From Methanothrix harundinacea (GTDB taxonomy: Archaea; Halobacteriota; Methanosarcinia; Methanotrichales; Methanotrichaceae): a DNA stretch of 33,908 nt. Below are positions 3,690 through 8,756 of the stretch, one piece after another. Where the stretch lies: assembly GCA_001509375.1 (NCBI GenBank), contig LGFT01000027.1, forward strand, positions 1-33,908. Direction: 5' to 3'. Position numbers and translations under genes: made by a program. Within the stretch, counting starts at the first letter, position 1, and the number at the start of each line of letters is the position of its first letter. The notes beneath the pieces were generated by a model that searched no databases, had not been told where the DNA came from, and saw only the letters and a program-made list of their open reading frames with translations.

Positions 3690-3815
3690 AAGTAAATACA
3701 GTTGCTATTCACTAAAAAGTTTTTGTGGTCGAGGTTCGTCCACTTCTTGAGACTCCAGACTTGACAAGGAGATATCGACCGCAAACTATTAGTATCTATA
3801 ATGAGTAATTTTAAG

Positions 3816-4235
3816 TTTGCCGCGTTTCGTACCGTGAGAACGAGGACAAGCATACCGGCAAAGCTCTTCAGGCTAGACCTGAGAGGTGCTGTCTATTGAG
3901 GCAGCATCCGGAAAGCATTGGGAAGCTGAGAACCGATAAGGTCGGATATATGCACGCCGTAACGGGCGTAGTATATGCCCAAAACTCAGCTAAACCCGAA
4001 AGCCCTCGTCAAGTGTGAGATGCGGCACAAAGCTGAGGACAGAGTAAGCAACAGGCCCGCCAACTGGAGGTGGCTTCTCGGGTTCTCGCGAATGGGACGC
4101 TGTGAAAAAGGACAGTGCTGTGCTTGTCGTCTGAACTGGCTTTGAGTCGGGCTCGGAGCGGACATCACAAATGTGATCGGTCCCTATGAATGTGAAAGGC
4201 CATCGTAATCGGTGCTTGTCCGCTTGCGACTCGAT
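3816..4235 (+). ncRNA. Candidate large structured RNA, about 420 nt, family not recognised
   Basis: No convincing protein is encoded here, but the sequence folds into many consecutive helices. TTTGCCG (3816-3822) pairs with CGGCAAA (3856-3862). CTCTTCAGG (3864-3872) pairs with CCTGAGAG (3878-3885). GTGCTG (3886-3891) pairs with CAGCAT (3902-3907). AGCTGAG (3924-3930) pairs with CTCAGCT (3985-3991), enclosing CCGA/TCGG (3933-3945) and ATATA..ACGCC/GGCGT..TATAT (3946-3976). AACCCGA (3993-3999) pairs with TCGGGTT (4078-4084), enclosing CCGCC/GGTGG. CGCTGT (4098-4103) pairs with ACAGTG (4112-4117). GAGTCG plus AGCGGAC (4144-4163) pair with GTCCGCT plus CGACTC (4218-4232), with ATCACA/TGTGAT in between. 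A TATAAT-like box near 3796 and TATTTT at 4241 favour the plus strand. It lacks the conserved cores I know for RNase P, SRP RNA or group II introns. Confidence 0.55.
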
Positions 4236-4239
4236 TCCG

Positions 4240-4954
4240 CTATTTTCCGAATTCCCCAAGAGTAAACTGATCCAGGAGATGGATCTCCTTTGACTTGTGC
4301 TCGATCAGGAGCATGTCCATCATTTGAAATGCGTTCCTTACCGCCTTGGCTCTGGCGTGGTTGTTGAAGAACATTACCGGGATAATGTCCCGGACCGTCG
4401 ATCAAGACGTTGGCTATGTTACCCTCTTTCAGGACGTCTAAAGTTGCAGGATCTAAGTCATCGCTGCTTTCATCCAGCCAACTTCGATGCCTGAACTCCA
4501 CCACAAGGTCGTACTCCTTTTGAGCCAAAGAGTCCAGAACATTGGAAAGACGGTCCAGAGCTTGTCCTTCGTGTTTGAAATGAGGTGATAGTTGGAACAG
4601 AACGGCACCCAAAAGATTTGCATCGGCAAGAGGAGTTAGACATGTCTTCTCAAAGGTGCCCGTCCTGAAGAGAGCCTTCTCCTCATCGCCTTCTACAAGT
4701 GCCTGGTGGGTTACAAGACCTGGCATCTTCACAGAGTACTTGAATCCGCCCTCCCTGTCCTTGACCTTTTTAATCCAGGACTGGACCTGCCGCTCTCCTG
4801 GTGGGTGGTAATATGTGCTGTTGATCTCTACTGTGTTGAAAAACTGGGCGTAATAAGAGAGCCACTCTCCCTTCTTCTTCGCCAATCCCATGGGATCGAA
4901 CCGACCCACCCAGTCATCATAGGACCAGCCGCTACAGCCCACCAGAATGGTCAT
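4240..4954 (-). pseudogene. DUF72 family protein, broken by internal deletion and frameshift
   Basis: From ATG 4954 the frame encodes a good DUF72 (TIM-barrel, UPF0759/YecE-like) N-terminus: VGCSGWSYDDWVGRF, FFNTVEINSTYYHPP, FKYSVKMPG, LGAVLFQLSPHFKH and EFRHRSW. After VLIDGPG it loses similarity and reads on to a stop at 4184. The true C-terminus is in another frame: VMFFNNHARAKAVRNAFQMMDMLL, ending at the TAG at 4242-4240. Between the two parts roughly 35-45 family residues (the Y-x-R-x-H-G-R region) are missing. The junction lies in the inverted repeat ACATTA-ccggga-TAATGT (4371-4388). The biochemical role of DUF72 is not established. Here the gene is most likely inactive unless the junction is a sequencing or assembly error. 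Confidence 0.75.
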
Positions 4955-5185: not shown

Positions 5186-7153
5186 CTAGCTGCATCTTCC
5201 CTCAATGAACTTGAAGGCGAATGACGCCTCATCCCAAGCTTTGCCGATCAACTTTGCGTAATAGTCAAGATCGAACTTGGAGGCGTCCCACTCCGTATCG
5301 ACCTCCCACTTGCTCGCATCGCGAATAACGTATCCCACAGTCATACCAGGGGAGACCTTCACCCCTCTCCTCTTATGGGCTTGGATCGCTGATGCCTGAA
5401 CGCATCTTTTCTCATAGTTCAGCTTGCTTATCCTTCGATGGATGACCATCTCTGAGGGATCTGCACTAGGCAGTTCTCGATGATACCTCTTCACGATCTC
5501 CACCGCCTGTGGTTTGATTCGGAGAAGTTCTTCGATGCTCCGAGCCTCGCCCATCTTCGCGAAGACATCCATCTGCATACGCCTTACGTACTCGGGCGTG
5601 TCCCTCTTTCGCAACGCTACACCCCGCATCTTCATCTTGCCACTCGATAACCTGCCAAAATAACGGTTGTAAGCTCCGAATCCGTCAGCCAGGGGTAAGA
5701 AGACGATCCAGTCATAAGGGTCAAGCTCTGTCCCTATCCCGATCGCAGCTTCCACCTTCTCCTTGAATTGTGATGCATCGCCGCCTTTGACCCATAGGCA
5801 GTCTACAATACCGTGGAGTACCTCTAGTTCCATGCTTTCTGCGATCTGCTTGGTCTTGATCAGCAACTCTCTTGAAATGGAAGTTATGGACTCATGGACC
5901 TCGATCCGCCCAAACTTGGCGTTCTTGTATCCAGTATAACCAAAACAGGTAACCAGCATCCACTTGAGGATTGAATCAAGACCCTTGTATTTGGGATCGA
6001 TCTTTTTCAGCCTCTTGGTCTCAAGTCGCAGATCCAGCAGCGGCTCGATGACGGCACTGAGAAAACCTCTCCTATTGGCACCATCCAGAGTCTCGGGGGA
6101 GAGGTTGTAGTTCACTATGATGGAAGGGTAAAAGGAGGTGAAGTCGAGCTCATAGGGGTTCTCGTGAACTCCTGGCTGCGGCTGGAATATCATGCCACCC
6201 TTGTCCGCCGCCTTCAGGTCTATGATCTTTCTCTGCCGCTCTGCATCCCACTTCCTGAAGGGTACGGCGATACCTCTCTGTAATGCTTCATAAACCTCGT
6301 AGTTGGAGATCAAAGTGCCTGGTGTGTAGCGAGACGTTAGGTTCGGCGATAGACCAGTCAGTCTCGACGCCAAGATTATGCCTGCAATTCCACTTTCTCT
6401 ATATGTGAAGCTGTTCTCGGTATCGATCAGTATCCGACCTTCAGGGATCACGGCACCGTGCTTGTGTTCCATCTTCCCATAGCTCCAGTAGGATTTGGAT
6501 GCCATGTTCCTAAACCAGCCCGTCCTGCTCAGGCATGGGTCGAGTCCGTACTTCTCTGCCTTTGCGACCATCCTCGGAACCCAGAGATCAGCGTCGGGGA
6601 AGAGAATCATGTCTGGATCGATAACCGTCACGAGATCGAATAGATCGGCCAGAACTTGCCGTTCGGGTCCATTCAGCCTTGTATCCCGACTGCAATTCCT
6701 GACAGTTATCCCTGTAATCATCCTTGTGAGTTGAGGGTTGGCGTCCACCTCGATCTCCAAAGATGTCAGAGGCAGGTCGAAATCCACATCGAAGCGTGAC
6801 TCCCCCTCGTCGCCACATGGGAATAGACCCTTATCGGCGAGGTATCTCTGATCGATCCGCAGATCGACGTTGTAAAGCTGTGCCTGGAGACGTGTCTGCT
6901 TCTCGATCTTCAGGGCAACGTCCCTGGGTGCCCAGATCTCGTATCCATCGAGGGGTCCGTAAACGGTATCGAAGCTGCACTCTTTGACCTTGAACCGACT
7001 TTCCAACCCCTCGGTCATCTCCCAGTGAGCGTGGGGATCTTCGAGATGGAGGTAGAAAGAAGGCTGATACCTGAAGGTGAGCGGTTTGGGTGATCCTCTC
7101 GATCGATCCCAAAGCTCTACAGATCCTCGATGATACGAATCAAAGATCCACAT
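5186..7153 (-). CDS. Divergent family B DNA polymerase (rPolB-like), exonuclease probably inactive
   Basis: The 655-residue protein keeps the architecture of family B polymerases. Motif A is intact ([10 protein letters not shown], Asp337). The motif B region reads [10 protein letters not shown]-x-G (397-409) instead of K-x-x-x-N-S-x-Y-G. Motif C is HGIVDCLWV (447-455) in place of YGDTDSxxV, so the first Asp of DTD is Ile and only Asp451 remains. In the proofreading domain the DxE of Exo I is LEIE (132-135), and the N and F-D of Exo II (region 178-191, [14 protein letters not shown]) are lost, so proofreading should be absent. It is shorter than replicative PolB (about 780). It is the last gene of a three-gene operon, overlapping its upstream neighbour by 14 nt. 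Loss of proofreading and the RecA-like partner point to repair or lesion bypass rather than replication. I recall a similar archaeal PolB group described with RecA-fold partners; that assignment is unchecked. Confidence 0.85.
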
Positions 7154-7394
7154 CGTCTCTCTTCTCGACTGCTTTCCGATCGGTATCCTTCAGAAGTTCT
7201 ATCAGGACGGAGAAAATTGCGGCCTCCAGGGGGTCGTCGAGGGCGTAGAAAGCTTCGCTGGAATGCTTCTTGACCATCTCAGCCAGCCTTTTACCGTATA
7301 TTTGGTCTTCTTTGCTCAGTGCTCGGGAGGCTTTCAGCCACCGTTGAGCCACCTCCTGAGACCCCATCCGGACGCTCTTGAAGGTTCTACCCAT
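7140..7394 (-). CDS. Small helical protein of the PolB operon, unknown function
   Basis: The 84-residue, charged, probably all-alpha protein has no signal peptide, membrane segment or cysteines. Its ATG (7394-7392) shares one base with the stop codon of the upstream RecA-like gene (TGATG). Its own end overlaps the start of the polymerase gene by 14 nt. Such tight translational coupling implies that the three products are made together and probably act together, perhaps as a polymerase accessory subunit. No recognised domain is visible. The C-terminal part, from Ser-Ser-Glu-Ala to the Asp-rich end, contains an amphipathic helix around PLEAAIFSVLIELLKD that could mediate contacts. Confidence 0.7.
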   Translation of the reverse strand: MGRTFKSVRMGSQEVAQRWLKASRALSKEDQIYGKRLAEMVKKHSSEAFYALDDPLEAAIFSVLIELLKDTDRKAVEKRDDVDL

Positions 7395-7906
7395 CAGAAC
7401 GCCTCCAGAGTTCTCTGCACTCTCGGACCTGGCTTGGCTTTCTTCGAAGCTCGCTTGTAGACGTACTTGTGAACCTCGTTGAAGACGAAGACCCGGTCAG
7501 CGAACTTGGATACCACCTCAAGGTGTCGATCGGTCCAAGGAGAGTACAAGAGCACAGATGAGCCGTTCGAAGCTTCCTTCAAGGCCTGACCGACGTACTC
7601 AGCCATCTCTGATGCATCTTCGAAGAGGCTGGGATCGTGTTCCAGTATGGTCAGGGTCTGATATGCCTCCTTGAGGATGGTCAGGAGCTGGTAGGCGGTG
7701 AAAGCTCTGCGGACATCCAGCTCGGTGAAACGGCGATCGAGCTTGTCGAGAATGCGCGAATAGTTCCCGGAGACGTAGAGTACTTGAAGGCGTTGAAGCT
7801 CCTTAAGGTTGTAGTTGAGCGAGTCGATCAGCATCTCCTCTGGTCCTATGAGGACGTTGAAGGTGTTGGGGGCGAGAGTGAGAGGGGATTGTAGTTCGAG
7901 TTCCAT
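7394..7906 (-). CDS. RecA-fold-like protein without Walker A, first gene of the PolB operon
   Basis: The 170-residue protein opens with a strand NVLIGPEEMLIDSLNYNL. A KaiC/RadA ATPase would have a P-loop (GxxxxGKT) here, but none is present. A second strand (LQVLYVSGN) follows, then helices, a Walker-B-like strand SSVLLYSPW, and a final strand-helix (RVFVFNEVHKYVYKRASKK) with a basic tail. The pattern looks like an inactivated RecA/KaiC-type domain, possibly a DNA- or polymerase-binding scaffold. ATG 7906 is the first start of the operon, and the gene is coupled to the next one through TGATG. The fold assignment is inference from strand order and from the association with a divergent PolB. 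A structure prediction should show a central parallel sheet if it is right. Confidence 0.65.
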   Translation of the reverse strand: MELELQSPLTLAPNTFNVLIGPEEMLIDSLNYNLKELQRLQVLYVSGNYSRILDKLDRRFTELDVRRAFTAYQLLTILKEAYQTLTILEHDPSLFEDASEMAEYVGQALKEASNGSSVLLYSPWTDRHLEVVSKFADRVFVFNEVHKYVYKRASKKAKPGPRVQRTLEAF

Positions 7907-8091: not shown

Positions 8092-8291
8092 GATGGACTA
8101 ATAAATGCCCACCTCAAAAACGAGCTGGAGGACGCCACGAACAGGCGGGTGGACGTTCTCACCTACAAGTCGCTTCATCCTCGGCTGAAAGATCGAATCC
8201 TGGCCGAGCAGGTCCCGATATTATAGGGCTAATCGAGGACCATTCTGAGGGGATCGAGGCCGTTCTGGAAGACTTGCCTTTCATCGCATGA
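8092..8291 (+). pseudogene. Relic of an MNT/HEPN (MntA-HepT) toxin-antitoxin pair
   Basis: Frame 8092-8226 has no start codon but encodes AHLKNELEDATNRRVDVLTYKSLHPRLKDRILAEQVPIL and a stop. This is the C-terminus of minimal nucleotidyltransferases of the MntA type (L-x-x-E-L-E-x-x-x-x-R-x-V-D-V-x-T, then LHP-x-L-x-x-RIL-x-E). The catalytic GSxARG...DxD part upstream is unrecognisable and interrupted by stops. Continuing to 8291, another short segment, LIEDHSEGIEAVLEDLPF, resembles the first helix of the HEPN partner (DUF86). The pair has been largely deleted; what follows is the HicBA module. The MNT part is fairly clear, the HEPN part is only suggestive. Confidence 0.6.
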
Positions 8292-8329
8292 CCAAGGTAT
8301 TTAAGATCTCAACGCAAAATAGTCGAGAG

Positions 8330-8545
8330 ATGAAGACCAAGTTCAACGTCCTCGTCGAACGGGACGAGGACGGATACTACGTCGCCACTGTCCCCTCCCT
8401 CCCCGGATGCCATACCCAGGCAAAGAGCCTGGATGACCTCATCGAGCGGGCGAAAGAGGCGATAGAGCTGTACCTCGAAGTGGAGAAAGACATCGCGCCT
8501 GGGGAATTTGTGGGGGTACAGGTTGTCGAAGCTGAGACCGGTTGA
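8330..8545 (+). CDS. hicB: HicB-type antitoxin
   Basis: The 71-residue protein is a standard HicB partial-RNase-H-fold antitoxin: KFNVLVERDEDGYYVATVPSLPGCHTQAKSLDDLIERAKEAIELYLE, the UPF0150 signature. The ATG at 8330 is chosen because family members start just there. An earlier ATG at 8288 would add 14 residues without similarity. It lacks the C-terminal DNA-binding extension (HTH or RHH) present in longer HicB proteins, so it may not repress its own promoter alone. It overlaps the toxin gene hicA by 23 nt, giving the antitoxin-first order. HicB blocks the HicA mRNA interferase by binding it directly. Confidence 0.9.
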   Translation: MKTKFNVLVERDEDGYYVATVPSLPGCHTQAKSLDDLIERAKEAIELYLEVEKDIAPGEFVGVQVVEAETG

Positions 8546-8756
8546 GGCGGATAAGGTCGTCAAGGCCCTGAGCAAACTGGGCTTTGAAATCGCAAGACAA
8601 AAGGGCAGCCATCTGGTGATGAAGCACCCAGACGGCAGGGTCACCGTGGTACCTATCCACGGGGGAGAAGAGCTGGGCAGAGGCATACTTAGGCAGATTG
8701 CCCACGATATCAAGATCGGAAAGGACGAGTTTGTAAAGATTTTAGATGAAATTTAA
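8523..8756 (+). CDS. hicA: HicA-type mRNA interferase toxin
   Basis: The 77-residue protein with a double-stranded-RNA-binding-like fold cleaves mRNA during translation in this family. It shows the family pattern SKLRPVEADKVVKALSKLGFE, the QKGSHLVMKHPDGR segment with the catalytic His (residue 30), and VVPIHGGEELGRGILRQIAHD-I. The TTG at 8523 is preferred to the TTG at 8508: GGGGG at 8511-8515 is well placed, and canonical HicA begins with (M)SKLRP. The start lies inside hicB, so toxin translation is coupled to antitoxin translation. The catalytic His is retained and the gene is full length, so the module should be functional. Confidence 0.9.
   Translation: MSKLRPVEADKVVKALSKLGFEIARQKGSHLVMKHPDGRVTVVPIHGGEELGRGILRQIAHDIKIGKDEFVKILDEI

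Follow-up and report, generated by a model that had tools for sequence, protein, structure and literature searches.

The window analysed here is the whole 33,908-nt stretch of Methanothrix harundinacea DNA. Within it, about 420 bases between two unrelated genes hold no protein and carry a series of short complementary segments. The question raised by this locus is whether these bases specify a structured RNA, and what kind of RNA it could be. A sequence-only reading had proposed an undescribed large archaeal RNA. That proposal stands on three results, namely a folding excess, compensatory changes among homologues and no match in Rfam. Judged from sequence and predicted folding, positions 3816-4236 encode a previously uncatalogued folded RNA of about 420 bases; "undescribed" refers here to Rfam 15, which lacks it, and to the open-access literature searched, in which no account of it turned up.

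Folding, covariation and limits of the RNA

The minimum free energy of plus-strand positions 3790-4250 was -170.7 kcal/mol, compared with -149.0±6.1 kcal/mol for dinucleotide-shuffled sequences (z -3.54, 0/100 shuffles). The trimmed segment 3811-4240 (+) folded with a z of -4.15 against shuffled sequence, and the minus strand reached a z of only -0.96. The excess on the plus strand, together with no excess on the minus strand, is counted in favor of an RNA gene on the plus strand.

Twenty-four full-length copies were aligned by MAFFT without reference to structure, and the consensus structure was taken from that alignment. The consensus contains 133 pairs in three consecutive domains (Table 1). 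Standard pairs were formed in 85.9% of 3139 cells, versus 35.5-41.9% when the pairing partners were slid by 1-3 columns, a control over which a structure derived from the same alignment has some advantage. The counts of double changes are less biased: 64 of the 133 pairs were changed on both sides, versus 35.8±4.0 in shuffles (0/500), and double changes occurred in 154 cells, versus 63.7±7.8 (0/500). When domain III was compared among 54 copies, 91.9% of the cells were paired, versus 33-46% for slid partners, with 52 double-change cells versus 20.3±3.8. These compensatory changes indicate selection on the RNA. Chance structure in spacer DNA is refuted because the homologues covary, in the 24 full-length copies as well as in the 54 copies of domain III, and it also has the excess fold and the conserved promoter block against it; its probability is negligible. 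That the structured RNA gene family is real can be regarded as almost certain. The covarying helices and conserved promoter, without conservation of an open reading frame, are those of a free-standing structured noncoding RNA, and the indels in the alignment are not multiples of three.

Most of the helices proposed earlier were found in the minimum-energy and consensus structures. The helix of AGCTGAG (3924-3930) with CTCAGCT (3985-3991) is conserved and compensated (helix 9 of the 24-copy alignment). The proposed AACCCGA/TCGGGTT pairing is present and pairs in 87% of cells, but it loses to GGCCCG/CGGGTT, which uses the same 3' strand, pairs in 92% of cells and is the one taken by the consensus structure. 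Domain I in the consensus is closed by UUUGCCGC...GCGGCA; its long-range helix P1 (helix 1) has 12 pairs, of which 7 were changed on both sides, and is paired in 93.1% of cells. The closing helix of domain III reads GUCGRG...CUCGAU in the consensus.

Two types of the RNA were distinguished, and domain II is common to both. The window copy is of type A. Type B copies (L116, L122, L132, L141, L142 and L144) have another 5' domain with the same promoter and the same domains II-III. By sequence comparison, the family is thus one with a lineage-variable 5' domain and a conserved 3' part (domains II-III). In type B copies (for example G019:C22:74139-74340 and G026:C13:63823-64023), the domain III model also matched twice in adjacent positions, with a spacing of about 96 nt; the first match of each pair looks like domain II taken for domain III, or like a duplicated module.

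Table 1 Features of the RNA locus in the window, and sites of the small hairpin RNA in related genomes.
Feature	Position	Strand	Description
Window copy of the large structured noncoding RNA (type A)	3816-4236	+	z -4.15; 133-pair covarying consensus; R1 82.6 bits, R2 98.4 bits
Archaeal-type promoter block	3775-3815	+	42-nt block conserved in 35 copies, including the viral copy
BRE-like CCGCAAA	3779-3785	+	in promoter block
TATA-like ACTATTAGTAT	3785-3795	+	in promoter block
AT-rich -10 region	TATAAT-like at 3797-3802	+	within promoter block
Domain I	3816-4027	+	long-range helix P1, UUUGCCGCGUUUCG with ...GCGGCA, around branched hairpins
Domain I hairpin GGUGCUGUC...GGCAGCAUC	3881-3908	+	9 pairs, 7 changed on both sides (helix 7)
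AGCTGAG/CTCAGCT stem	3924-3991	+	encloses the most conserved hairpin together with a small one; helices 9-11
Most conserved hairpin AUGCACGCC-GUAAC-GGGCGUAGUAU	about 3946-3977	+	inside AGCTGAG/CTCAGCT stem
Domain II	4028-4144	+	closing helix CAAAGC/GCUUUG, stem GGCCCG/CGGGUU; helices 12-18
Domain II hairpin	GACGCUG (4096)...CAGUGC (4113)	+	
Domain III	4145-4236	+	3' domain, four-way-junction-like, closed by GUCGGG/CUCGAU(U)
T-rich stretch, possible terminator	4237-4250	+	TATTTT 4241-4246 after last helix
Small hairpin RNA sites	L125:4995-5093; L139; L115:5330-5400; L118/L119/L121; others		3' of large RNA

The 42 nt preceding TTTGCCGC are conserved among 35 copies, with the consensus TCAACCGCAAACTACAAATATCTATAACGATTATATAGATAG. 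The edge of this block is sharp, and the information drops from more than 1 bit to the background of about 0.2 bit exactly at -42. The BRE-like CCGCAAA, the TATA-like sequence and the AT-rich -10 region of the block occupy the positions usual in archaeal promoters. The TATAAT-like box noticed earlier is therefore present as a part of the archaeal BRE/TATA/-10 block and not as a bacterial -10 box, and the sigma-70 reading of it was dropped. We infer that the RNA has an archaeal BRE/TATA promoter of its own, which drives transcription on the plus strand; from the position of the conserved block, the transcript of the window copy would start at about 3811-3816. The limits of the RNA are best set at 3816-4236, with the promoter at about 3775-3815. 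At the other end, the TATTTT reported after the last helix was confirmed, and the 40 nt past the 3' end contain on average 42% T in 35 copies, which is consistent with a U-tract terminator but is not proof of one.

Copies of the RNA and their genomic surroundings

A DNA search located the RNA at five places in its own genome: full copies in the window and on contigs C39 (84%) and C71 (80%), a 3'-truncated copy on C112 and a fragment on C30. Copies in related genomes were also found. Covariance model R1 represents the 3' domain, and R2 represents domains II-III. R1 matched in 34 of 50 Methanotrichaceae genomes with up to 12 matches per genome, R2 gave about 140 matches spread over 35 of the 50 genomes (8 of 11 genera), and the union of both models covers 36 of the 50. 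The window copy scores 82.6 bits with R1, below the 103.3 bits of its best paralogue on C39, and is short of about 7 nt (ACAGGCC) in domain III with the overall structure kept.

R1 had no match in another 188 genomes of the class, a phylum-wide set of 394 genomes gave no match outside Methanotrichaceae, and plasmid and phage collections gave none either. A gapped-pattern scan of 84,980 species genomes gave convincing matches only in Methanothrix, Methanosaeta or Methanotrichaceae records; matches in Chloroflexi, Proteobacteria and others were about as many as the chance estimate of about 14 and were rejected. Inside the family, all eight genomes of genera g5 and g6 (93-99% complete) are without the RNA under both models, and it is missing also from some close relatives, which indicates that the RNA is not essential. 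As far as these searches reach, the RNA family is confined to Methanotrichaceae, where it is multicopy and patchy.

The neighborhoods of 61 copies were compared. The four combinations of neighboring gene orientations are about equally frequent (17/15/14/13), and about half of the copies share their strand with the downstream gene, as by chance. This random orientation indicates a gene of its own rather than a cis-regulatory leader. A leader or riboswitch, which would sit at a constant place ahead of a gene on its own strand, was rejected from these 61 copies. No protein family accompanies all of these copies. tRNAs lie near only some copies, sporadically, and tRNA attachment sites were rejected. 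An NT5C-RNA neighborhood is kept in three species (G003, G007 and G008), and the RNA tree contains orthologous and paralogous lineages common to several species. These conserved neighbors and orthologous lineages indicate that copies can be long resident and behave as resident genes. The RNA is also only a part of the repeated unit in segmental duplications, which extend past it. Neighbors encoding DUF72, DNA polymerase B and HEAT-repeat proteins were dropped as shared partners, as inside the genus they are explained by local synteny or by segmental duplication.

Several features of the window itself were recorded. A DUF72 gene at 4184-4954 and 4240-4374 (-) converges on the 3' end of the RNA; its C-terminal part seems to be continued in another frame (a 44-aa ORF), its reading frame enters the RNA antisense, and this copy looks frameshifted in comparison with L036:8487-9380. 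A family-B DNA polymerase-like gene with two small companions, at 5186-7906 (-), is duplicated on C39 and C30 (82-86% identity), where an RNA copy also lies within 10 kb. A pair of HicB-like antitoxin and HicA toxin genes, with the antitoxin gene first, occupies 8288-8756 (+). The right half contains diverged direct repeats (26192-26578/26996-27382, 73%) and diverged inverted repeats (28711-29329/30739-30118, 66-69%), and both pairs are probably paralogous genes.

A second element, conserved and also multicopy, consists of an archaeal promoter (GCGAAAGCCTTTTAT...) and a hairpin RNA of about 62 nt (GGCGAAAGUC...GACUUUUGCC) with two CCCUCCU motifs, which are anti-Shine-Dalgarno-like. It folds with a z of -2.7 to -5.5 and is present in 33 of the 50 family genomes. 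From its motifs, it could be a translation-repressing small RNA. No small hairpin RNA was found on the 3' side of the window copy.

Comparison with known large RNAs

No Rfam 15 family matched the window at gathering or permissive thresholds, and whatever was hit fell far short of the gathering scores and is put down to chance; 20 other copies likewise remained unmatched with permissive E-values included. Archaeal RNase P RNA and SRP RNA are likewise large structured archaeal RNAs. The Methanothrix RNA differs from them in giving no Rfam match and, unlike a housekeeping RNA, in being multicopy and missing from nearly complete family genomes.

Group II introns and the omegaRNAs of TnpB/IscB are likewise dispersed, multicopy structured RNAs in archaea, and the dispersed copies of the present RNA, up to 12 per genome, are what a self-moving mobile element would produce, be it a MITE-like repeat, a self-splicing intron relic or a relic of a transposon guide RNA. 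However, the window and the 20 other copies gave no match to the catalytic core of group I/II introns, no match to IS605-type RNAs was found in Rfam, and neither TnpB/IscB nor reverse transcriptase recurs among the neighbors. The end sequences have no apparent terminal inverted repeats, the duplications reach past the RNA, and the compensatory changes imply selection on the RNA. The mobile-element explanation is therefore judged very improbable.

To our knowledge, few large structured archaeal RNAs are known besides rRNA, RNase P RNA and SRP RNA, and phage-borne ornate RNAs are known from bacteria only. No case of an archaeal ornate RNA was found in the open-access literature searched. GOLLD is described as a virus-encoded RNA whose 3' region is conserved and whose 5' region varies (PMC12286853), and the Methanothrix RNA resembles it in being large, ornate and, through one tailed-virus copy and the integrase link, virus-associated, with the 3' region conserved and the 5' region less so. 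It differs in size (about 420-510 nt, whereas GOLLD often exceeds 800) and in being archaeal, mostly chromosomal and multicopy. GOLLD genes often lie close to tRNA arrays in phages and prophages; tRNAs are only sporadic near the present RNA, with no tRNA island. ROOL is encoded in phages and prophages without a known protein partner (PMC12286853); the likeness here is a large ornate RNA with a viral copy and no known protein partner, and the difference is an archaeal RNA of other architecture. Neither covariance model matched, in the case of GOLLD for the window and 20 other copies, so the resemblance is one of kind and not of membership. We read the family as a new class whose members are large archaeal RNAs, partly virus-borne and analogous to GOLLD/ROOL. 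A covariation-supported, multicopy RNA with a viral member in a major acetate-using methanogen group is a tractable archaeal case for what large ornate RNAs do; its structure has been modelled, covariance models exist and its hosts can be cultivated.

The viral copy and competing explanations

A full-length copy with the same promoter was found on the IMG/VR contig IMGVR_UViG_3300037043_000179 (30.6 kb). It sits between parA and a tyrosine integrase gene on a contig that also carries terminase, major head and minor head proteins, and it folds into the same three domains (z -5.55). Its place in the tree is weakly supported (88/74), and it is the one viral contig with an RNA copy out of 2.9 million. 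Two other sets of viral matches were rejected: the first pattern match, L082, looks like an RNA-phage replicase gene matched by chance, and the matches L148-L154 to the 5' motif are also chance, with no covariance-model match. Relatives of the viral integrase (65% identity to it or more) are rare in the family, and an RNA lies within 5 kb at 6 of their 13 loci, versus 0.34 expected (P about 1.5e-6, post hoc).

These data, with the fold excess, the covariation, the promoter, the patchy multicopy spread and the GOLLD-like 3'/5' conservation, are the basis for reading the RNA as borne at least in part by viruses or integrative elements and as acting in trans as a scaffold-type RNA, as GOLLD/ROOL are thought to do. 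We regard this combined reading as the likeliest one, though about evenly poised between right and wrong. The lone viral contig, the few viral neighbors, the syntenic orthologs and the mismatch of the integrase side were counted against its viral part. For the majority of the chromosomal copies, no viral gene lies in the neighborhood. The integrase is on the 5' side of the RNA in the virus and on the 3' side in the two intact chromosomal cases; with order and orientation differing between virus and chromosome, a simple provirus remnant is not supported. A viral origin of most copies is suggested by the viral copy and the integrase link, and the scaffold-type function is suggested by analogy. 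In the proposed course, the own BRE/TATA promoter would drive a plus-strand transcript of 3816-4236, which would fold into three domains and act as an RNA, not as a message. The RNA would be brought in by integrating viruses or elements, some chromosomal copies would persist under selection for structure, and the RNA would work in trans as an RNA-only or RNP scaffold. It may further be the first large ornate RNA of an archaeal tailed virus, multicopy in host chromosomes and partly in a two-RNA locus with the small anti-Shine-Dalgarno-like hairpin RNA at a fixed distance downstream, and the two together might work as an RNA system of viral descent that acts on translation or against competing viruses; we consider this extension speculative and rather unlikely.

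The main rival is a resident host regulatory RNA, for example of translation or transcription, that was segmentally duplicated and was captured once by a virus. The syntenic orthologs in several species, the paralogous lineages common to species and the duplications with the RNA as a part of the repeated unit all agree with it. So does the small CCCUCCU hairpin RNA gene in g2/g11: of its 45 sites in the seven genomes checked, 20 follow the 3' end of the large RNA on its strand, 19 of them with a spacing of 121-143 nt and one with a spacing of 31 nt. The absence from all eight g5/g6 genomes and some close relatives, and the strong link of viral-type integrases to RNA copies, speak against it. 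The resident regulator is a realistic possibility, though not the one we would expect.

A ribonucleoprotein with the DUF1699 (PF08004) protein was also considered. DUF1699 genes number 1-19 per Methanotrichaceae genome and are enriched directly upstream of RNA copies. Eight copies, from two genera and with the gene in two different orientations, have it no more than 250 nt upstream, and 11 of the 61 copies have it no more than 3.5 kb away, as such a partnership would suggest. But every one of the 50 family genomes encodes DUF1699, whether or not it carries the RNA, as does Methanosarcina acetivorans, and most RNA copies have no DUF1699 neighbor. The AF2 model of the protein (pLDDT 68) is too poor to judge the fold. 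This partnership is thus considered improbable. A search of the PDB with the DUF1699 profile gave only weak S6-like matches (E about 0.04). The loci with DUF1699 upstream are in genomes G018, G026 and G028 (L051, L112, L114, L115, L118, L119, L121 and L125).
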